Source of the DNA: Actinomycetota bacterium
GTDB taxonomy: Bacteria > Actinomycetota > Rubrobacteria > Rubrobacterales > Rubrobacteraceae
Assembly: GCA_902810695.1 (NCBI GenBank)
Contig: CADDYV010000015.1
Span: 1-64,000, forward strand
Length of the DNA: 64,000 nucleotides
Reading direction: 5' to 3'
Part shown: piece by piece, positions 40,592-51,807 of the stretch
Numbering within the stretch: position 1 is the stretch's first letter
How the letters are laid out: every line of letters begins with the position of its first letter
Position numbers and translations under genes: made by a program
The notes under the pieces: generated by a model
Told to the model about the DNA's origin: nothing
Database searches by the model: none
The model's input: only the letters and a program-made list of their open reading frames with translations

Positions 40592-41635
40592 ATGAGGATC
40601 GAGGAATTTCTGCCGGATGTACAAAAGGTTCTGGCCGAAGAAGGAGAACCAGCCTACCGGCTAAAGCAGGCCTACAAGGCCCTCTCGGTCTCCCTGATCC
40701 GGGACTGGGAGGAGAGCACGGCCCTGCCCAAGCGCCTGCGAACCGCGCTCTCCCGCGAAGCTCCCGCCGCGACGCTGGAGCTTCTGCGTGTCTCCCAGGC
40801 GACCGACGGCACGCGCAAGTACCTCTTCGAAACCCGCGATGGGCACCGCATAGAGACGGTCATGATCCCGGAGAAAGAACGCCGCACGGTCTGCATCTCC
40901 ACCCAGGTCGGCTGCCCGATGGCCTGCAAGTTCTGCGCGACCGGTCTCCTGGGCATCAAGCGCAACCTCAAGGCACGCGAGATCGCCGAGCAGGTCTTCG
41001 TCGTGGCCCGCGATATCTTCCCCGATCGCGTCTCGAACGTCGTGGTCATGGGCATGGGCGAACCCTTCCTGAACTACCGCGAGACGCTTCTCGCTCTCAA
41101 AACGCTGAACGACCCGCAGGGATTTAACCTCGCCGCACGGCACATTGCGGCCTCGACCAGCGGGTTGGTGGACAGGATACGCCGCTTCGCCGACGAACCG
41201 GAGCAGTTCCACCTGGCGATATCGCTGCACAACCCCTTCGAGGACGAGCGCCGGAAGCTGATGCCCGTAGCATCGCGGCACTCGATCCCGGAGCTCATGT
41301 CAGCCGCCCGCTACTACGTCGAGACAACCCGCCGCAAGCTCTTCTTCGAGTACACCCTGCTCGCCGGCGTAAACGACCAGCCCCGCCACGCCGAAGCCCT
41401 CGCAGAGCTTTTGGATCACCCCCTTTATTTTCTCAATCTTCTTCGCTTCAACTGGACCGACACAGGATTCGAAGCCACCAGCAAGCGCGATGCGAAGGAA
41501 TTCCTCCACCACGCCCGGAAGCTCGGCCTCTCGGCGACCCTCCGGCCCAGCCGCGGCGAGGACATAGACGCCGCCTGCGGCCAGCTCGCCGCCAAAGACC
41601 TGCGGGGCCGCCCCACCATCCCGGCAAGCCGGTAA
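40592..41635 (+). CDS. rlmN: 23S rRNA (adenine(2503)-C(2))-methyltransferase RlmN
   Basis: A radical-SAM enzyme that methylates A2503 of 23S rRNA and A37 of some tRNAs. The [4Fe-4S] motif is CPMACKFC (Cys108, 112, 115). The methyl-carrying resolving cysteine is Cys329 in the terminal IDAACGQL box. Length 347 is normal. TATAAT at 40576-40581 lies only ten bases before the ATG, so the leader is very short or absent. Confidence 0.95.
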
Positions 41636-41952: not shown

Positions 41953-44808
41953 TCAGACCCGGACTTCCACCGGTTCTATCAGGCTCCGTTCCGCCTTGCG
42001 GACGGAGCTTTTTCCTTCTTCGTCCTCTTCTATCATCCAGATCTCATCTATAAGAGCCGACTCCTGCACCTCTCCGACGTGGGAGATGATGAAGATCTGG
42101 CCGAAAGACCTCTTGAGGCGCTCCAGCGCCAGGAGCACGTTGGCGCGCCGCTCGGCGTCGAGGCTGCCGAAGACTTCGTCCAGGATGAGAAAGCCCAGGG
42201 TCTCGTTGCCCCTGGCGGCGATGATCTTGGAGAGGGCGACGCGGGCGCAGAGGCTCGCCACGTCGGCTTCACCGCCGGAAAATCTGTCTATCGCGTAGGA
42301 GTCGTCGAAGCGGTCCACGAGCTTCACCCGGTAGTTCTCGTCGAACTCCATCCGCTCGTAGCGTCCGTCGGTGAGGGTTCGCACCAGATCCGAGGCTTCC
42401 GCTTCGAGCATCGGCCTCACCCTCGACGTCAGGCTCCGGAAGAACTCGGTAAACAGGCTGTCCATCTCGTCCATCCGGGATGCGCCGGTGGCCTTCTCGT
42501 TGGCGAGCTTTCTGTCAGCGTCCAGGCGCTTCAGTTCGCTCGCCGCCCGTTCGATGCGGTGGTCGGCGTCCTTCCACTCCCCTCCGAGATGCTCCCGGAT
42601 GTCCCGCAGTCTCTCTAAGTTTTCCCTGGCGGTTGCCTCCCGTTCTCCTGCGGCTTCGTACTCCGCCTCGTCGAAGCCGAGAGCAGTTATCTCCTGCCGG
42701 ATCTCCTTCGCAGCCCTCGCCACTTCTCGCTCCCTGCGGCGGGCTCTCTCAAGGTTTTTCTCGATCTCGGAGCGGGTCTCAAGCCGCTTTTCCAGTTCCC
42801 CGATCCTGCCCAGCATCTGATCCAGTCGGGCCTTCTCCTTGCCCTTCTCGCGGTGGGTCTGCGCGTCGTAGGAGACGCTGGCGAGCGCATCCAGGGTTTT
42901 CGCAAGCTCTTTGAGACGCTCGCAAAGATCCGAGTGCTCGCGGGCAAGACCTTTCACCACCGGGTAGGTGTCCCTCAAGCTCCGCAGGACATCGCACTGG
43001 GCGCGCGCTTCTTCCAGGACGCCCTCACTCGGGCGCTCCACGCCATCTAGCTTCGCACCCAGTTCCCGGCAGCGTTCATCGAGACGTTTCAGCCTCTCCA
43101 GACGTTCGTGAGCCCGGTCTTCAGTCCGGGCAAGTTCCTCTTTCAACCGCCGCCACTGCTGCAGCCGTTCCAGGACTTCCTGTAACTTCTCTGCAGAAGC
43201 GCGTGCCGAGTCGTTGAACTCCTCGGCCTCGGCCTCCTCTTGCGCGGCCCGGCAGCGGATAGAGGCAGCCTGGCGCTCCAGGGTATCCGATATCTCGTAC
43301 TGCTCCTCCTCGTCGAAAGTGCGGTGGCATGTTGGGCAGCGGTCCTCGTCCCCGCTCTCGATGGCCTCGCGAGCCTTGTCCAGATTCTTGGCCTCGCGGG
43401 TTATGGTCTGCGCCGAACTGCGCCGGGCTGCGGCAAGCTCCTTGAACCTGTTTACCTCCTCCCGAAGCTCGCGCTCCCTGGCCTCCAGATCCTCGCCACC
43501 GGAGATTTCTTGCAGTTCCTCGCCGAGCCTTTCGGATTCCTCGCGCGCCTCTTCGTACCGCTCGCGGGCGTCCTCTGCCTCCTTTGCGGCCTGCTGGTAC
43601 GCTTCGTGCGCATCCTGCAGTTCTCCAAGTTCTTGCAGGCGGCGCTCGGCCAGCTTCAGCGCGCCGTCTGCGCTTTCCAGCACCGCCGCCGACTGCTCCA
43701 GAAGCTCCTGTCCCTCCAGCTCGAAGAGTTCATCCCATCCCGGAAGCGGCTCGCCGTCGCCGCGCCCATCCAGTTCCTCCAGGGTTTCCGCAAGCTCGGA
43801 CTCGATGGTGGCGAGGCGGGTCTGCGTCCGGAGCCGCTCCTGGCGGGCTCTCTCGCGCTCCTCGGAGCGACTCCGGCCTTCTTCCAGGCTCTCCAGCTCC
43901 GCTTCGAGTTGCGGCAGCCGGGATGTCTGGGGCCTGAGACGCTTTAGTTCCTCTTCCGCCGCGCCGATATCGGCCAGGTCTTTCTCGGCTTCCTCTGCCC
44001 GATCTGCGGCGCGGCTCTTCTCGCTCTCGGCCTCCTGGAGCCCGCTGAGGAGCCCCGTATGCTTGCGGTACGCGGCGTCCAGAGCAGCGCGGGCCTGCCG
44101 GGCGTTCGCCAGCTCCGTCTCGACTGTCTCATAGTCCGAAGAGACCTTCTGTAGCTCGTCCTCGATGCGTCGGCACTCGGCGCGTGCTCCTTCGAGTTCG
44201 TTTTGCAGAGATTCGAGGTCGGCTTCGGCGAGCCGGGATTCGAGCATCCGGGCCTCGGAGCGAAGCTCGTTGCGGTCGGAGCGCAGTAGCTTCTGTGCGT
44301 CTTCGATCACATCTATGCCGAGCATCCGGGAAACTTTGCGCACCCGGCTTATGCCGTCATCGTGGGCAAAGAACCGCAGCTCGTTCTGCTTGGCGTAGAA
44401 GGTTGCCTCGAACGCGGTGCGGTCCATGCCGAGCAGGTTTTCCTCGGCCCACCGGCTCACGTCGCCCGCTCCCGTAACGATCACACCGCCATCCGGCCCG
44501 CGGGCCTCGGCGATTGTGGAGCCGCTCTTGAGCTGGCGCCGGACGGTGTAGGGACTGCCCCCGATCGCCAGGGTTACCTCCACCACGGTTGGGTCCTTGG
44601 TAGAGCCGCCGCTCCAGGGGATCAGGTCGTTCGAGAAGCGCATGCCGCCGCCCCTGGACCCGAAGAAAGCCCACAGGATGCTCTCGAAGAGAGTAGACTT
44701 TCCCGCCCCGTTGCGCCCGACGACCCCGATGGCCCCTTCGGGCGGCAAAAGCTCGACCGGCTCGCGGAGCTGCTTGTAGTTCTCTATGTAGAGCCGCTCC
44801 AGATTCAC
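41953..44808 (-). CDS. sbcC: SbcC/Rad50-type ATPase
   Basis: The structural ATPase of the SbcCD/Mre11-Rad50 nuclease, which processes DNA ends, hairpins and protein-blocked breaks. The N-terminal P-loop VGRNGAGKSTLF (Lys37) and C-terminal signature FSGGEADVASLCARVALSK with LDEVFGSLD flank two long coiled coils. The zinc hook between them is CPTC (Cys491, Cys494). Length 951 is typical. The GTG start overlaps the sbcD stop (GTGA), with GGAGG nine bases upstream; the longer open frame upstream is just overlap with sbcD. Confidence 0.95.
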   Translation of the reverse strand: MNLERLYIENYKQLREPVELLPPEGAIGVVGRNGAGKSTLFESILWAFFGSRGGGMRFSNDLIPWSGGSTKDPTVVEVTLAIGGSPYTVRRQLKSGSTIAEARGPDGGVIVTGAGDVSRWAEENLLGMDRTAFEATFYAKQNELRFFAHDDGISRVRKVSRMLGIDVIEDAQKLLRSDRNELRSEARMLESRLAEADLESLQNELEGARAECRRIEDELQKVSSDYETVETELANARQARAALDAAYRKHTGLLSGLQEAESEKSRAADRAEEAEKDLADIGAAEEELKRLRPQTSRLPQLEAELESLEEGRSRSEERERARQERLRTQTRLATIESELAETLEELDGRGDGEPLPGWDELFELEGQELLEQSAAVLESADGALKLAERRLQELGELQDAHEAYQQAAKEAEDARERYEEAREESERLGEELQEISGGEDLEARERELREEVNRFKELAAARRSSAQTITREAKNLDKAREAIESGDEDRCPTCHRTFDEEEQYEISDTLERQAASIRCRAAQEEAEAEEFNDSARASAEKLQEVLERLQQWRRLKEELARTEDRAHERLERLKRLDERCRELGAKLDGVERPSEGVLEEARAQCDVLRSLRDTYPVVKGLAREHSDLCERLKELAKTLDALASVSYDAQTHREKGKEKARLDQMLGRIGELEKRLETRSEIEKNLERARRREREVARAAKEIRQEITALGFDEAEYEAAGEREATARENLERLRDIREHLGGEWKDADHRIERAASELKRLDADRKLANEKATGASRMDEMDSLFTEFFRSLTSRVRPMLEAEASDLVRTLTDGRYERMEFDENYRVKLVDRFDDSYAIDRFSGGEADVASLCARVALSKIIAARGNETLGFLILDEVFGSLDAERRANVLLALERLKRSFGQIFIISHVGEVQESALIDEIWMIEEDEEGKSSVRKAERSLIEPVEVRV

Positions 44809-45959
44809 GAAGAGACCTCCTCGCTCGCGGCACGAGTCAGGTACGCTTTCCCCTTCTCCAGAAACTCTTCGGCAAACTTCTCTTCTATCTCGCCGTGCTC
44901 CCTCCTGGCCTTGACGAACGCCTCCAGCTCCTCCTCCAGCGAACCGAACACGGCGGTAACCGGTCCTTCGCGCTCCTCTGCGGCGCTTTCCTCCTCGGCA
45001 TGGACCTCCAGACTGAAGTGGAGACACCTGCGCTGCAGGTCCCTCAGAAGCTCCCGGTCAACGCCGCTCGTCACTCCGCGCCGCGCATCGTAGACCCGCA
45101 GGCGGACAATAGCGCCGTCGAGGTCAGCATCAGAAACCCGCTCCCGCACCGCCTCCGCAAGCTCCGAAGCGTCCATCTCGCGGGCGCTTATCTTGGGCAG
45201 GTCTATCATCGGCCTGGTCTCTATGGGTACGTGCTCGACCTCCGGCTCTCCGTCGCTTAGCTCGACGATGGCGAACCCCGGCTCGAACCCAACTTCTCCG
45301 AAACCGAAGCGTTCGGTAGCCCCGGCGTAGTAGGCGTTCTGACGGTGCCGGTGGAATTCGTGGTAGTGGCCCAGGGCCACGTAGTCGAAGCCGCCCTCGA
45401 TCAGACCGGACTTCAGGTTCGCCTCGCCCATCTCGTACGAACGCGCCTCCAGCCCCGGCACCATCCCGTGCGTCACCAGGATGTTGATGTCGGCGTCTTT
45501 ATCGGGGGTGGCAGCCCCGGTCCCCAGAACCGCCCCGTGCGGCGCGAGCGTAACCCCGACCCCGACTCCTCCGATCTCCACCAGCTCGTAGTCCAGCTCG
45601 TATCCGTGCGCGGAGACGACGTTTACGAGGTTGGCGTACTCCAGCGCCGCGGTCGTGGTTCTGAGGCGCGGCGTCTCGTGGTTTCCGGCTGCGACCAGGT
45701 ACGGGATGCCCGAGAGGGCCGTGATCCGGGCCGTCTGCTTCAGAAACCCGATGATGACGTGCGTCGCCGGGCGCACCGAGTCGAAGACATCGCCGGAGTG
45801 AATCACCAGATCCACATCCCGCTCCAGGATGGCGTCAACAGCCCTCCCGTACGCCTCCTGAACGTCAACCTCCCGCTGGTTGCGGCTGGTCCTGGGACAC
45901 AGCTTGTTGTAGCGGCTGTATCCCAGATGCGTGTCCGATATGTGGGCTATGCGAACGAT
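44805..45959 (-). CDS. sbcD: SbcD/Mre11-type nuclease, apparent non-standard start codon
   Basis: A calcineurin-like metallophosphoesterase: motif I (HISDTHLG) lies in the first 15 codons, then HSGDVFD, AAGNHE, THG and GHYHEFHR follow. The conserved N-terminus is encoded from about 45959, yet no ATG, GTG or TTG occurs between the in-frame TAA at 45963-45965 and a GTG at 45815, which lies beyond motif I. ATC at 45957-45959, with GAGG eight to nine bases upstream, is the best start. Starting at 45815 would remove the metal-binding Asp and His. Pairs with sbcC through a GTGA overlap. Confidence 0.9.
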   Translation of the reverse strand: MVRIAHISDTHLGYSRYNKLCPRTSRNQREVDVQEAYGRAVDAILERDVDLVIHSGDVFDSVRPATHVIIGFLKQTARITALSGIPYLVAAGNHETPRLRTTTAALEYANLVNVVSAHGYELDYELVEIGGVGVGVTLAPHGAVLGTGAATPDKDADINILVTHGMVPGLEARSYEMGEANLKSGLIEGGFDYVALGHYHEFHRHRQNAYYAGATERFGFGEVGFEPGFAIVELSDGEPEVEHVPIETRPMIDLPKISAREMDASELAEAVRERVSDADLDGAIVRLRVYDARRGVTSGVDRELLRDLQRRCLHFSLEVHAEEESAAEEREGPVTAVFGSLEEELEAFVKARREHGEIEEKFAEEFLEKGKAYLTRAASEEVSS

Positions 45960-46046
45960 TCTTTAATCCTCGTCTAGTCCAAAGTTACCCAACTAGAATA
46001 CCAGGCTTAAAGACAACCTCAGCGTTGTTTTCGCTATGTGCAAGGG

Positions 46047-46514
46047 TTATTTGTGGATCACCCGGAACCTTTCGCACACCAGCGGCATATCCGGCGCAGG
46101 CTCCCTGCCTATGTTCGGCAACGTGCGCGAGAAAAAGTTCCAGTGCGCCTCCCGCCAGTATTTCAGCGAGCGATCCCCTTCTCCTTCCTCATAAGCAAAT
46201 CTGTCGTCAACTTCATCGTATGGTCGTACTTCAACCTCAATGGTCTCGATGATGCAGAGCGGATTGTCGTCACCGTCCAGAACGATGAGTTTCTTGCCGA
46301 CTTTGGGTAGAGACGATCCCTCGGCTTCGTACTCCCACAGCGCGGAGCAGGTCGCCGTCTTGGTCTCGTTTGCAACCAAGGTCCCAAGTTCATTCGCGAG
46401 TTGGGTTGAGTCGCCAAATCTCTCCGCCTCGTACTTCTCTTCGTGTATCGGAGAATTAACCGGGAGCGTATTCAGATAACTTTGCCAGTAAGCCTCGATT
46501 CGGTCAACGCTCAC
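46047..46514 (-). CDS. ASCH domain protein
   Basis: A 155-residue PUA-like ASCH protein containing KTATCSALWEYEAEG, LIVLDGDDNPLCIIETIEVE and FAYEEGEGDRSLKYWREAHW, the family landmarks (Lys and Asp residues of the proposed active cleft included). ASCH proteins bind RNA or hydrolyse modified nucleosides such as N4-acetylcytidine. It lies between the HerA-like gene (16 bases upstream) and sbcD, so it is probably in the same operon, although its role in DNA repair is unclear. Confidence 0.85.
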   Translation of the reverse strand: MSVDRIEAYWQSYLNTLPVNSPIHEEKYEAERFGDSTQLANELGTLVANETKTATCSALWEYEAEGSSLPKVGKKLIVLDGDDNPLCIIETIEVEVRPYDEVDDRFAYEEGEGDRSLKYWREAHWNFFSRTLPNIGREPAPDMPLVCERFRVIHK

Positions 46515-46529
46515 GTCTAGTTTCCTGCG

Positions 46530-48575
46530 CTAATCCCTCATCCGGTCCAGCCCGGAGAGTATGCTAGACGTTTCGCGCCTGTCTCTCCTCTGAGCTCCTC
46601 GCTTGACGTTCCAGAGGAAGTTCTTGAATGGGTCGGCGGCGACGTTGCCGCTGCGGGCCATCGCCTGCACCGCGTCCAGTGCCTCGAAGACGCGCTCCTC
46701 GGGTACGCCGTCTATTTCCGACCGGATCCGGGCTGGAGTGGGCGGCTTGCTCATCAGGGTCCGCATCACGGAGAGGACGGAAGCGGCGGCGTCCACCTTC
46801 TCCTGGCGGAAGATGCGCTGGCCCACGGCTCCTGGCAGGACCGGCGGCAGCGGGAACGTCCCGAATATCGGGACCGCGTAGTGGGCGTGGCGGCAGAGCA
46901 GGCGCCCCTTCTCTAGCTGCAGAAGCTCCTCGCGGGTCGTCTGGGAGAACGAGCGGTAGCTCGAAGCGGTAAGCTCTTCGTCGCCGATGCGCCCGTAGAG
47001 GCTCGTGGCGGCGTTGCCGATCACCTCGTCGTCCACCTTGCTGCGGAACTGCTGGGCTCCGAAGAGGACCAGGTTGAGGTGCCTGCCGCGCGCGGAGATG
47101 TCCACCAGCGTGTCCTTCAGGCTGCTCGTCTTCGAGCCCGCCGGGGCGTACTTGTTCAACTCGTCCACGAAGATGATCAGGCGGTCCACCCCCAGGTCCC
47201 CGTTCTCCGCGAGGTCCCAGATGCGCTCGATGGCGCTGGTGACGATGAGGTCCTGCGGTATCCCCGTAAGCTGGGAGATGTCCACCACCCGGACTTCGCG
47301 GTCCTCGAACGGCCCGTCCACGCTCGGGAGATCCCCGTGCTCGACCCGTCCGTGCGCGAGAAGCCCCCCGCATTTGCTCGGCAGAATCTTGAAGCGGTTG
47401 CGGACCTTGGCGATAGTCGAGCGGTGGTGGCCGTTCCAGCTCTGCTTCTCGCTCTCCTCGAAGTACTCGTCTATCTCGTCCATGAGGTTCTGGAACTCGG
47501 ACTGGGTCCGTATCTCCTGCGCCCTCAACTCCTCGATAAACCCCCGGAACTTGTCGTCCATGTCCGAAGGGTCGAAGACCGAACCTGCGTAGGGCAAAAC
47601 GTCTCCCAACTCCCATACGATCGGGTAGACGCACCCGTCCTCGCCCCGCGCGTTCCGCAGCGTGTTCAGCTTTCTGGCCGGGATACCAGCGAGGTCCAAA
47701 ACTCTCTCTCCGGAGTCCATGCCGTATCGCAGCGGCGCGAAGATCCGCAGGTTCTCGAAAGGTTTCGTCTCCAGCCCCAGGGCCTCGTACATCATCCGGT
47801 GCTCTTCGGGAAGCCCGGTGTAGCCTTCTTTAGCGTATCGTTCGGCGAGGTCTGGGTCCTCGTCTTTGCTCACCTCTACCGGCTTGTCCAGAAACAGCAG
47901 GTCCGCACCCTTGACGTTGAACATCAGCGCGGCGACTTTTTTGTCTCTGGCGGTCTGGAAGATGCTGGAGATGGTGAACAGCGCGTGGCTGGTCTTGGTC
48001 GAGAGCCCGCTCATGCCGGTGATGTTCAGGTGCCCGGCCTCGGGACCCAGCAGGTAGTCGGCGTCCACGTAGAGCGGGGTACGCTGGGGAGCGCCGTCCT
48101 CTTCATTTCCGTTCTCGTGCAGGAGAAGCGGGATCGGGGTCCCCGAAAACTCTTCCGCTCCGAGGGCGAACTCTATCGCCTTGCGGGTGGCGAAGTAGAC
48201 GGGTCCGCTCTTGACCGGGCGGCGGCTCTTCTTGCGCTCCTCGCGGTGCCTGCTGTCCAGGACGCGGGCGCACCAGACCAGGATCTCGACCCTCTCGCTC
48301 AGGGCTTCGAGCGAGGGATCTCCGTCATAGGCGTAGAAGTCGTCCAGAAAGCTCTGCAGATCGGAGTAGCGTCTGGGATCGTCGAGGACGGCGACAACCG
48401 TGGCGTCCTCGCTCTCGGCGGCGACGATGTGGCCGATGTCGAGCCTCTGGGCGGCCTCGGACTCGGCGGTCCAGAAATAGAACTCGTGGGCCGTGGCCGG
48501 GTACTCCTCGCTGGTAACGACCCTGCCGACGGGTCCGGAGTCTGTATCGAGAAATTCCGGGTGCAGCAACTTCAT
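46530..48575 (-). CDS. HerA-like hexameric ATPase / DNA translocase
   Basis: The N-terminal beta-barrel-like region (HAS-barrel position, 1-110) precedes a P-loop ATPase domain with the variant Walker A GMSGLSTKTS (Lys194) and Walker B RLIIFVDELNKYAP near 468-480. ARGRHLNLVLFGAQQFRSKV follows, as in HerA/FtsK-type motors. Long inserted helices (about 200-420) and a C-terminal arm complete the 681 residues. HerA drives the NurA nuclease in 5' end resection. Its start overlaps the NurA-like gene's stop by four bases, supporting a two-component machine. Confidence 0.82.
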   Translation of the reverse strand: MKLLHPEFLDTDSGPVGRVVTSEEYPATAHEFYFWTAESEAAQRLDIGHIVAAESEDATVVAVLDDPRRYSDLQSFLDDFYAYDGDPSLEALSERVEILVWCARVLDSRHREERKKSRRPVKSGPVYFATRKAIEFALGAEEFSGTPIPLLLHENGNEEDGAPQRTPLYVDADYLLGPEAGHLNITGMSGLSTKTSHALFTISSIFQTARDKKVAALMFNVKGADLLFLDKPVEVSKDEDPDLAERYAKEGYTGLPEEHRMMYEALGLETKPFENLRIFAPLRYGMDSGERVLDLAGIPARKLNTLRNARGEDGCVYPIVWELGDVLPYAGSVFDPSDMDDKFRGFIEELRAQEIRTQSEFQNLMDEIDEYFEESEKQSWNGHHRSTIAKVRNRFKILPSKCGGLLAHGRVEHGDLPSVDGPFEDREVRVVDISQLTGIPQDLIVTSAIERIWDLAENGDLGVDRLIIFVDELNKYAPAGSKTSSLKDTLVDISARGRHLNLVLFGAQQFRSKVDDEVIGNAATSLYGRIGDEELTASSYRSFSQTTREELLQLEKGRLLCRHAHYAVPIFGTFPLPPVLPGAVGQRIFRQEKVDAAASVLSVMRTLMSKPPTPARIRSEIDGVPEERVFEALDAVQAMARSGNVAADPFKNFLWNVKRGAQRRDRRETSSILSGLDRMRD

Positions 48576-49735
48576 CCTCCCTGTAGAGTCGCTATCTCGC
48601 GTTCGAGACGCAAACGGGCGCGCCGGCCCTCGTGGATGAGGGGACGCAGGATCTTCTCGACGTGCGCTATGGGGTAGATCATGGACGGCCAGCGCGGGTC
48701 GGGCTTGGCGAGCGGAGCCCTCTCCGCCAGAATCCAGCGGCTGACCTCATCGAATATCCGCGTGTGTTCCGCCTCTGAAGGGCTCGGCACTATGGTCTCT
48801 ACCCTCACGAGCCCCGAGGTCGCGTCGGTCCCCTCTCTCGAAGCGTCCGCGGGCCAGAGCCGGACGTACCACGAGGCACGCTCTTCCTCGGTTCTCCCGG
48901 CGGCGCGTCTCTCCGCCCGCCACGGCGGCACGAAGGCGGTCGTCCTCTTGCCGGGTTCGAGGTCGAGGAGCATCCGGGCTTCCTCGCCGCCGAAGAAGAG
49001 GCGCCGGGAGTTCTTGACCAGCCCGGCGGCCCGTCTCACTGGAGCCGGAAGCTGGCCGTCTACTGCGATCCAATCCTCCCCGGTGTCCATCTCGTCCCAG
49101 CGCCGCAGAAGCTCGACCTCCAGAGCTTCCCTGAGCGCCCTGGCCCGGTTGTAGGCCCTGGCCTTGAGCCCCGAGTAATCCGCGGGGTCCACGTAGGGCT
49201 CGTAGCGGGTGGAGTCCACGAGTAGCTCCGTATACCCCGAGGAGATCCCCTCCGCATCCGAGACGACCAGCGGCATCCCTGCTTCCTGTACGGCCTCGAA
49301 CAGCGCCCGCGCCGCACCGTCTTCGGCATTCCCCGGCAGGATGAGCGCCCGCAGTACGGTAGGAACTCCCTCTACGGGGAAGCTCCGCACGCGCCGCTCT
49401 TCTCTGCGGGCAATGGCGGCGGCGACGGTGGTGATGACGACCGGCACGGTCCCGACGCGCCCGATCTCCTCGGTCGTCTGCACGCCGTCCAGGAAGTACG
49501 CGAACCCGCTCTCGCCGTCCGGCTCTCCGGGATGGCGGTCCACCACGGGGTCATGCTCGAAGGCATCCAGGGCGTCTCTGCGCCCGCTCTCCTCTTCCTC
49601 GAACGGGTTCTGGCGGAATCGCTCCCACTCCAGGTCCGAACCCCCGGCGGTGAAGCGCACCCCGCTCTCCGAAGCCTTCCGGAATGCCTGCTCCAGCGTC
49701 CCGACAAAACTGCTTGCCGTGCTCCCCTCCTGCAT
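48572..49735 (-). CDS. NurA-like 5'-3' nuclease
   Basis: The protein has acidic motifs YFLDGVQTTEE and WIAVDGQLPAPV separated by about 150 residues, the pattern of the two metal-binding aspartates of the NurA/RNase H-like nuclease fold, and lies directly before a HerA-like motor. Length 387 exceeds archaeal NurA (about 330). It was identified partly by context. An ATG at 49735 was chosen because TATACT stands seven bases upstream, the layout of a leaderless promoter; a TTG at 49765 is in frame. Confidence 0.72.
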   Translation of the reverse strand: MQEGSTASSFVGTLEQAFRKASESGVRFTAGGSDLEWERFRQNPFEEEESGRRDALDAFEHDPVVDRHPGEPDGESGFAYFLDGVQTTEEIGRVGTVPVVITTVAAAIARREERRVRSFPVEGVPTVLRALILPGNAEDGAARALFEAVQEAGMPLVVSDAEGISSGYTELLVDSTRYEPYVDPADYSGLKARAYNRARALREALEVELLRRWDEMDTGEDWIAVDGQLPAPVRRAAGLVKNSRRLFFGGEEARMLLDLEPGKRTTAFVPPWRAERRAAGRTEEERASWYVRLWPADASREGTDATSGLVRVETIVPSPSEAEHTRIFDEVSRWILAERAPLAKPDPRWPSMIYPIAHVEKILRPLIHEGRRARLRLEREIATLQGG

Positions 49736-49774
49736 ACCTGTCAGTATACGCGGGCTTTTTGCCAAAGACTATCC

Positions 49775-50353
49775 CTACTTGTCAGGTTCAGGGACAGGCA
49801 GCTCGAACTGCCGCTCGGCCAGAGACACGGCCCGGCGGAAGCTCCGGCGGTCGTCAGGGGTTTCGGTATAGGTATCGCGGGCCATCTTGAGCACTTTTTT
49901 GGCTTCCTGGCGCTGTTCGAGGACGTTGGGGATCTCCTTGGAGAAGGCGTACTCCAGATCACCACCTTCTACCACGTAGAAGTGCAGGTAGATATTCTTC
50001 TGCCGGCCGAGCCCCGAAAGCGCGGCGTCGCCGCTGACCTGGGAGACGTTGAGGACGGTTCCGGCGGAGAGGGGCTCGCCTTCCTCCGGGTAGACGGTGA
50101 AGGCCAGCCGGACGACGGGTCCGTAGGGAGTCTTGTAGAACTCCAGGCGGCGCACGACGCGTGAGGGGCCGCGGACGCCTTCGATCTCCTCCCTCGACGC
50201 GGCGACGACGAGGTGCCCCTGAGGGGGACGCATGGAGCTGCGTGCCTGGGTGGAGATCACACGCGCCTGCGCGCCCCTCTCCGCAACCGCTGAAGCCAGG
50301 CTCCGGCGGATGCGTTCCGGGAGGTCGAGACCCTTGCTCTCTTCCTCGGTCAA
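49775..50353 (-). CDS. Hypothetical protein upstream of the NurA/HerA genes
   Basis: This 192-residue soluble protein was not recognised. The N-terminal helix (LPERIRRSLASAVAERGAQ) is followed by a beta-rich core (GHLVVAASREEIEGVRGPSR, YGPVVRLAFTVYPEEGEPL) and a C-terminal acidic/basic helical segment. The start ATG overlaps the M20 peptidase stop (ATGA), and NurA-like starts 39 bases after its end with its own -10 box. It could belong to either neighbour. Confidence 0.65.
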   Translation of the reverse strand: MTEEESKGLDLPERIRRSLASAVAERGAQARVISTQARSSMRPPQGHLVVAASREEIEGVRGPSRVVRRLEFYKTPYGPVVRLAFTVYPEEGEPLSAGTVLNVSQVSGDAALSGLGRQKNIYLHFYVVEGGDLEYAFSKEIPNVLEQRQEAKKVLKMARDTYTETPDDRRSFRRAVSLAERQFELPVPEPDK

Positions 50354-51702
50354 TCGGCAAACCTTCTGAAGAACCGGGCGAAGTATCCTACGGACTCGAA
50401 GTAGTCCGCGAGCCGGACCGACTCGTTGGGGGAGTGGATGCGGCTTGCGGCGTTTGCGACGTTCCCGGTCATGATGGTCGGTATCCCGAGGTCGGTGGCA
50501 ACCAGTGAGGTCGGTCCGCTCCCGCCGATGGTCGGGTAGACCACGGCATCCTCGCTCCCGAGATCCTCCCAGGCCGCAACCGCCGTTCTTACGACCGGCG
50601 AGTCAACCGGGGTCTTGGCGGGCTCCAGACCGTGCATGTCGACCACTTCGATGTCGTCGAAACCGCGCTTCTTGAGGTGCTCGCGCACGAGCTCGACCAC
50701 CCGTTTGTGATCCTGGCCCACGACCAGTCGGAAGTCCATCTTCACGAAAGCCTCGGAAGGCACGATGGTCTTCGAGCCGGGACCGGTGTACCCGGACTGC
50801 ATGCCGGCTATGTTCGCCGTGGGCCGCAGCAAGTACTCTTTGAGGGCCTCTTCGCCGGTCAGGTTGCGGTCGAAGGCTTCGACATCCCAGGAAGCTTTCA
50901 GGGCCGCTTCGTCGAAGGGAATGCGGCTTATCGCTTCGAGATCTTTTTCGGTGGGTGGGTCTGCCATCTCCATGAAGCCGTCCAGCGTGATATCGCCGTT
51001 CTCATCCTTGATGGTCCTCAGAGCCTGCACGAGCCGCCAGGCCGGGTTGGGTGCGATGCCGCCGTACATGCTGTGCAGGTCGTGGGAGGGGCCTTTCGCG
51101 CGAAGCTCGACGTAGGCCATGCCCTTGGTGCCACAGAAGATCACGGGCCGGTTCGCCTCGTCCTTGATCGAACCCTCCCAGATGCAGGCGTCGGCGGAGA
51201 GAAGCTCCGCGTTCTCGCGCACGAACGCCGGGAGGCTAGGGCTCCCGACCTCTTCTTCGCCCTCGATCAGGAACTTCAGCTTGAAGGGCAGCGGCCCAAA
51301 CTCCTCCTGGTAGAGTCTGAGAGCCTGGATGCGTGCCAGCACATCTCCCTTGTCGTCGGCAACGCCACGTGCGTAGAGGCTTCCGTCACGGACGGCGGGT
51401 TCGAACGGCTTGCTCTCCCACAACTCCAGCGGTTCTGGCGGCTGCACGTCGTAGTGGCCGTAAGAGAGAAGAGTCTTGTCTCCCTCTCCGATCTCGGCGT
51501 AGACCACCGGGTGCCCTTCGGTCTCCATGATCTTCGCCTGCGCACCCGCGGATTCGAGGCGGGATCTCACCCATTCGGCGCACTCGCGAAAGCCCTCTGC
51601 TCCCTCTTCGCGGGCCGATATCGAGGGCATCCGCAAGAACTCTTTGAGCTCTTCGAGAAGCTCGTCCTTAGAACCTTCTACACGCTCGTCCAGATTCCCC
51701 AT
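50350..51702 (-). CDS. M20 family metallopeptidase (dipeptidase)
   Basis: A di-zinc peptidase with SYGHYDVQPPEPLELWESKPF and GVADDKGD (metal-bridging Asp), then LIEGEEEVGSPSLPAF (catalytic Glu pair), a dimerisation domain, and a C-terminal IHSPNESV metal ligand. This is the carnosinase/CNDP-like dipeptidase subgroup that trims small peptides. Length 450 is typical. The ATG at 51702 has GGAGG seven bases upstream; the longer frame starts inside the intergenic region. Confidence 0.92.
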   Translation of the reverse strand: MGNLDERVEGSKDELLEELKEFLRMPSISAREEGAEGFRECAEWVRSRLESAGAQAKIMETEGHPVVYAEIGEGDKTLLSYGHYDVQPPEPLELWESKPFEPAVRDGSLYARGVADDKGDVLARIQALRLYQEEFGPLPFKLKFLIEGEEEVGSPSLPAFVRENAELLSADACIWEGSIKDEANRPVIFCGTKGMAYVELRAKGPSHDLHSMYGGIAPNPAWRLVQALRTIKDENGDITLDGFMEMADPPTEKDLEAISRIPFDEAALKASWDVEAFDRNLTGEEALKEYLLRPTANIAGMQSGYTGPGSKTIVPSEAFVKMDFRLVVGQDHKRVVELVREHLKKRGFDDIEVVDMHGLEPAKTPVDSPVVRTAVAAWEDLGSEDAVVYPTIGGSGPTSLVATDLGIPTIMTGNVANAASRIHSPNESVRLADYFESVGYFARFFRRFAD

Positions 51703-51807
51703 AAAACCTCCGTTTCTGACCTGTGGAGAGGTTAGCACTTTTCCTGCGGTCCGAGAGTAAATTTGCGTTGGCCTGGGTATGTAGTTGCTGTTATATTAGG
51801 AGCAGTT

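Follow-up and report, generated by a model that had tools for sequence, protein, structure and literature searches.

Sulfolobus and Thermococcus carry rad50, mre11, herA and nurA in one operon; the four archaeal genes are co-transcribed, and archaeal Mre11 interacts with HerA (PMC2288612). In bacteria, NurA–HerA and SbcCD are already known, each separately. SbcCD of E. coli and T. maritima shows the common Mre11/Rad50 architecture with a zinc hook, and NurA–HerA of D. radiodurans, encoded by adjacent genes, has been characterised structurally (PDB 7f6d, 7wrw and 7wrx; PMC9960219). The literature calls the role of the bacterial pair uncertain and limits its occurrence to a few bacteria, Deinococcus-Thermus among them (PMC9960219, PMC4663267), and its connection with SbcCD is stated as not known in D. 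radiodurans (PMC4663267). HerA hexamers also act with a nuclease or effector in the SIR2–HerA and DUF4297–HerA defence complexes. Here we analysed a 64,000-nucleotide stretch (contig CADDYV010000015.1, hereafter the window) from a Rubrobacteraceae genome of the Actinomycetota, in which a NurA–HerA pair assigned to the D. radiodurans type is clustered with sbcD and sbcC. This four-gene linkage is widespread in actinobacteria. As far as the searched literature shows, its frequency in Actinomycetota is new, as are a cargo slot between herA and sbcD and sbcD genes that lack a standard start codon.

The cluster lies on the minus strand at positions 41953–49765. All five genes, nurA, herA, an ASCH-domain gene, sbcD and sbcC in the order of transcription, are present as given in a preliminary description of the locus, with the starts of sbcD and sbcC now corrected to about 45959 and to 44808:

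48572–49765, minus strand: nurA, Deinococcus-type nuclease, 387 residues from ATG 49735 or 397 residues from TTG 49765
46530–48575, minus strand: herA, Deinococcus-type hexameric translocase (hexamer by family analogy), 681 residues, assigned by phmmer, profile and Foldseek
46047–46514, minus strand: ASCH-domain protein gene (PF04266, E 6e-23), in the variable slot between herA and sbcD
45960–46529, minus strand: herA/sbcD junction, the cargo slot, from a survey of junction lengths in Rubrobacteraceae genomes
44805–45959, minus strand: sbcD, Mre11-like nuclease (Pfam Metallophos; NCBIfam Mre11_Halo, 91.8 bits), proposed ATC start at 45959
41953–44808, minus strand: sbcC, Rad50-like ATPase with zinc hook CPTC (Pfam SMC_N, Rad50_zn_hook and SbcC_Walker_B; NCBIfam Rad50, 161 bits)

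The genes are tightly spaced: nurA and herA overlap by 4 nt, about 15 nt separate herA from the ASCH gene and about 87 nt the ASCH gene from sbcD, and the stop of sbcD overlaps the start of sbcC (GTGA). The two overlaps suggest co-transcription as an operon. The corrected start of sbcC is GTG 44808, and the 1024-residue open reading frame originally called carries about 75 spurious extra residues. Pfam and a motif reading of the corrected sbcD found the phosphoesterase motifs of SbcD and the Rad50 ATPase and zinc hook of SbcC.

Neither the 387- nor the 681-residue protein matches any Pfam or NCBIfam model at E ≤ 0.05, so the profile searches put forward earlier did not identify them. The Pfam NurA model, PF09376, gives no match to the 387-residue protein and instead picks a second NurA elsewhere in the genome; a match to it reflects a standard profile rather than a defining biological feature, and NurA membership rests on fold and family profile. 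Given that Pfam and NCBIfam cannot place the two proteins, we used structure and family profiles for their identification. The AlphaFold (AF2) model of NurA (predicted local distance difference test, pLDDT, 82; predicted template modelling score, pTM, 0.84) retrieved from the PDB by Foldseek, at E < 0.001, only two proteins, TM1739 of T. maritima and NurA of D. radiodurans (1zup, 1.1e-8 and 3.3e-8; NurA of 7f6d, 2.5e-8). The model thus places this protein within the RNase H-like NurA fold; a fold outside it had been named beforehand as grounds for rejecting the proposal, and the search did not point that way. Furthermore, the NurA family profile finds D. radiodurans NurA (7f6d) at E 1.8e-26. 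The candidate metal ligands D93 and D236 (A2 numbering) are invariant across 12 diverse members.

HerA matches its D. radiodurans counterpart in a phmmer search (E 5.5e-33), with the family profile (1.7e-160) and, through a model of pLDDT 81 and pTM 0.81, in Foldseek (1.4e-28). As a match it outranks both archaeal HerA and the SIR2- and DUF4297-linked HerA proteins, whose structural similarity has E-values of about 1e-12 to 1e-16. Pfam is nearly blind to the wider family, since only 1 of 11 members matches DUF87, and weakly. By family, the protein is expected to form hexamers, translocate DNA and bind NurA. Its motifs comprise the P-loop GMSGLSTKTS (K194, T195), D225 and the Walker B motif DEL (D471, E472). 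K194, D225, D471 and E472 are invariant in 11 members and T195 is nearly so; in the alignment with D. radiodurans HerA they correspond to K175, D220, D487, E488 and T176. The two proteins share the P-loop pattern GxSGxxTKTS, the Walker B sequence DELNKYAP and the catalytic D, and Rubrobacteraceae HerA differs in its longer C-terminal extension. The preliminary description had remarked on an unusual Walker A. By sequence, GMSGLSTKTS is the ordinary form of the Deinococcus-type family. We dropped the idea of an inactive, degenerate Walker A because the motif is family-wide and K175 and T176 of D. radiodurans HerA contact nucleotide/phosphate and Mg (PMC9960219).

Structure search and family profiles therefore bore out both identities, and the view that the two proteins are not NurA and HerA was abandoned. 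They further assign the pair to the bacterial, Deinococcus type rather than the archaeal one: bacterial relatives are much closer than archaeal HerA and NurA, structures from D. radiodurans and T. maritima rank first, and the matches to Pfam NurA and DUF87 expected of the archaeal operon are absent. The pair is thus distinct from the archaeal lineage, as had been suspected, whereas its portrayal as a special, archaeal-style import is not supported, given that the type occurs in D. radiodurans and widely across Actinomycetota.

We surveyed 297 Actinomycetota genomes, together with 40 Rubrobacteraceae genomes for HerA. Outside Rubrobacteraceae, 64 of 269 genomes, from about 21 families, carry strong members of the HerA family. 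Of 34 actinobacterial loci from outside Rubrobacteraceae, 30 have the complete set of four genes in a single locus spanning about 19 kb or less, so the cluster goes beyond chance. Two orders are found among the 30, nurA-herA-sbcD-sbcC (17) and herA-sbcD-sbcC-nurA (13), and the junctions are mostly tight. Among the remaining four loci, two are truncated by the end of a contig, while L078 and L108 have no sbcCD near herA. The four proteins show correlated pairwise distances (r 0.83–0.93), a figure to which the shared ancestry of the genomes contributes. The linkage to Mre11–Rad50 homologues foreseen in the preliminary description is therefore borne out, and relatives keep the genes together. As the pair is frequent in Actinomycetota and at the examined loci almost always stands by sbcD-sbcC, a joint function becomes directly testable in cultivable strains.

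Of the 40 Rubrobacteraceae genomes, 36 contain HerA, most of them in one copy. Every contig that covers the region shows the order M20-orf192-nurA-herA-sbcD-sbcC, and in many genomes rlmN lies downstream. This near-universal, mostly single-copy occurrence with M20-orf192 upstream argues for a resident core operon. The flanking genes of the window are:

50350–51738, minus strand: M20-family peptidase gene (PF01546), by synteny a conserved upstream neighbour in Rubrobacteraceae
49775–50353, minus strand: orf192, gene of a 192-residue protein, kept between the M20 gene and nurA in Rubrobacteraceae
40592–41635, plus strand: rlmN (TIGR00048), by synteny a convergent neighbour kept in many Rubrobacteraceae

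Pfam and NCBIfam scans gave no match for the orf192 product, and orf192 was not found near the module at actinobacterial loci outside Rubrobacteraceae.

SbcD and SbcC of the window score best with the archaeal Mre11 and Rad50 models, as would suit the archaeal operon, yet far below their equivalog cut-offs in NCBIfam. They also fall under the cut-offs of the bacterial SbcD and SbcC models, so that the locus differs from bacterial SbcCD in these scores as well as in its four-gene cluster and its unusual sbcD start codon. No match to a second SbcC was found in the genome; the sbcC of the locus is the sole copy found. On another contig (G000:C3:100546–102505, L109), a second NurA adjoins a DUF87-type HerA without SbcCD. 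The genome also encodes two adjacent large PDDEXK_1 proteins, which we read as AddAB/AdnAB type. Given these two pairs, the cluster probably does not replace the usual bacterial end-processing machinery, contrary to the earlier suggestion that it stands in for AddAB or RecBCD.

The junction between herA and sbcD in Rubrobacteraceae is a cargo slot for unrelated, often defence-type genes. Counting a junction as filled when more than 200 bp separate the neighbouring genes, it is filled at 20 of 29 loci, against 0/27, 2/29, 0/31 and 1/28 for the other junctions (3/115 in total; Fisher p 9e-15, a nominal value since the genomes are related). A 1084-bp gap between sbcD and sbcC in genome G308 was discarded as an insertion; it most likely reflects a frame break in sbcC. 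Slot contents differ between genomes. ASCH occurs in five; others hold the ApaLI restriction enzyme and its methylase, a further DNA methylase alongside DUF433/DUF5615, AbiV, an MrcB_N-HNH protein, RelA/SpoT together with a HEPN-like protein, DUF5677, and proteins of ParE-like and PIN type. Some of the cargo is not obviously defensive. Nearly all recognised cargo points in the operon direction, and in much of it the GC content at third codon positions (GC3) is 0.44–0.63, compared with 0.77–0.91 in the core genes of these loci; in the window, the ASCH gene has 0.65 and its four core genes 0.79–0.86. ASCH, previously counted as an extra member of the set, is accordingly one of several occupants of a variable slot, and we dropped it as a conserved subunit. 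The slot suggests that end processing and phage defence are linked.

The start of sbcD required separate analysis. The start called by the ORF finder, GTG 45815, would remove metallophosphoesterase motif I, RIAHISDTHLG. Upstream of the motif the frame is open as far as a TAA stop and offers no ATG, GTG or TTG; after the stop come AGA ATC GTT and the codon of the conserved R, and sbcD of the window probably begins at this ATC, at about 45959. Among 29 Rubrobacteraceae sbcD genes, 21 have no in-frame ATG, GTG or TTG between the upstream stop and the motif R/K-I/V-A-H-I/V-S-D-T-H. Sequencing error was dismissed because the same situation recurs at 21 loci, as was a truncated SbcD or pseudogene, given the open upstream frame and an N-terminus conserved at all 29. 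The codon two positions ahead of the motif (−2) is ATA at 12 loci, CTG at 6, ATC at 5, GCG and AGC at 2 each, and GTG and TTG at 1 each; the −1 codon mostly encodes Val, with its third base free. A Shine-Dalgarno match lies 6 nt ahead of the −2 codon in 8 loci. A standard start is missing from none of 27 herA and none of 15 sbcC genes of the family. Outside Rubrobacteraceae, in other actinobacteria and other phyla, it is missing from none of 33 sbcD genes, 32 of which have ATG or GTG immediately ahead of the motif. Rubrobacteraceae sbcD is thus a candidate for non-standard initiation, whether at the −2 or the −1 codon, and the 21 genes make conserved non-canonical initiation easy to test.

The biochemistry of these families, together with the archaeal Mre11–HerA interaction (PMC2288612), enables us to propose a putative two-step mechanism. 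Initially, SbcC–SbcD would recognise double-strand ends, including hairpin or protein-blocked ones, and cut them open, following established SbcCD biochemistry. Afterwards, as modelled on the biochemistry and structures of D. radiodurans NurA–HerA, a HerA hexamer would load on the opened end, pump DNA by ATP hydrolysis and feed it to a NurA dimer, which would digest the 5′ strand when translocating freely. The product would be a 3′ tail for RecA or, with complete digestion, destroyed DNA. We consider it rather probable that the cluster encodes such a coupled end-processing machine, with a core for chromosomal end processing and repair, a probable secondary role against invaders and a slot that serves as landing site for co-expressed cargo. 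This reading builds on four proteins of these families with intact ATPase and metal motifs, on genes linked and co-diverging across Actinomycetota, on the operon position fixed beside M20-orf192 and on the one junction that accepts unrelated genes. That NurA–HerA and SbcCD are mere neighbours, working separately and sharing a promoter for general maintenance, seems improbable: D. radiodurans NurA–HerA is biochemically active without SbcCD (PMC9960219) and the L078 and L108 loci lack sbcCD near herA, but the linkage at 30 of 34 loci, the overlapping gene ends, the two orders that both keep the set and the correlated divergence all argue for a joint role.

Several observations weigh against chromosomal end processing as the core function. 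Mutants of D. radiodurans in nurA or herA show no radiosensitivity (PMC9960219, PMC4663267); deletion of these genes does not reduce, and can increase, damage tolerance (PMC9960219). In a 2026 study (PMC12977600), T. kodakarensis HerA–NurA was judged unlikely to resect ends, and antiviral degradation was favoured for this archaeal complex. Repair is therefore not the obvious role, and the published D. radiodurans deletions provide no link of the cluster to radiation resistance, which leaves the supposed fit to a radiation- or desiccation-resistant organism without footing. Copies on plasmids, in proviruses and beside Wadjet point to defence. Moreover, because SbcCD of the window is archaeal-like and that of plasmid-borne relatives scores best with the bacterial SbcCD models, the pairing with NurA–HerA may have arisen on more than one occasion, or a replacement of SbcCD may have taken place. 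A primarily antiviral or anti-plasmid function, in which SbcCD would expose the ends of invaders, NurA–HerA would destroy them and the slot genes would be swappable effectors under a shared promoter, is possible though doubtful. It would account for cargo such as ApaLI with its methylase, the DNA methylase, AbiV, MrcB-HNH, RelA/SpoT with the HEPN-like protein, the ParE-like, PIN and DUF433/DUF5615 proteins, for plasmid modules that neighbour ImmA/IrrE genes, one of them adjoining Wadjet JetA2/JetB2, and for NurA–HerA in proviruses; known defence systems pair HerA with SIR2 or DUF4297, and HerA–NurA has already been proposed as antiviral. However, the core operon is near-universal and vertically placed in Rubrobacteraceae, the slot is empty in about one third of genomes, and toxin-antitoxin and restriction genes are common at many variable loci. 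PADLOC also assigns the four proteins no specific system, with weak or general hits only (HerA to mad8, 34 bits; SbcC to LmuB, mad3, PbeC and others). The partners here, NurA and SbcCD, differ from those of the SIR2 and DUF4297 complexes. In short, the stable core position in Rubrobacteraceae favours housekeeping, and the mobile copies and slot cargo favour defence. A more elaborate and rather unlikely version would make the Rubrobacteraceae operon a defence hub, with a resident SbcCD–NurA–HerA core and a dedicated slot in which genes for restriction, abortive infection and toxins would be swapped between species and share one promoter, and with Mre11 kept low and sensitive to initiation factors through the conserved AUA/AUC/CUG start.

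The same module is found on plasmids of one Chloroflexota member, two cyanobacteria and one Streptomyces. Three of these modules (L041, L043 and L047) have neighbours of ImmA/IrrE type, one with a TIR protein and a kinase nearby, and the Streptomyces copy adjoins Wadjet JetA2/JetB2. On the provirus or phage contigs L120, L121, L123 and L045, the genes that come after NurA–HerA encode an HSP90-like (HATPase_c_3) ATPase and a radical SAM protein of the B12 type; the L120 set adjoins an integrase. At L122, the flanking genes of the pair encode an Eco57I-type methylase (1127 residues) and a second DNA methylase, a possible partner set of restriction type. Marinitoga camini virus 1 (L044) carries NurA–HerA without SbcCD, amid hypothetical and regulator genes.

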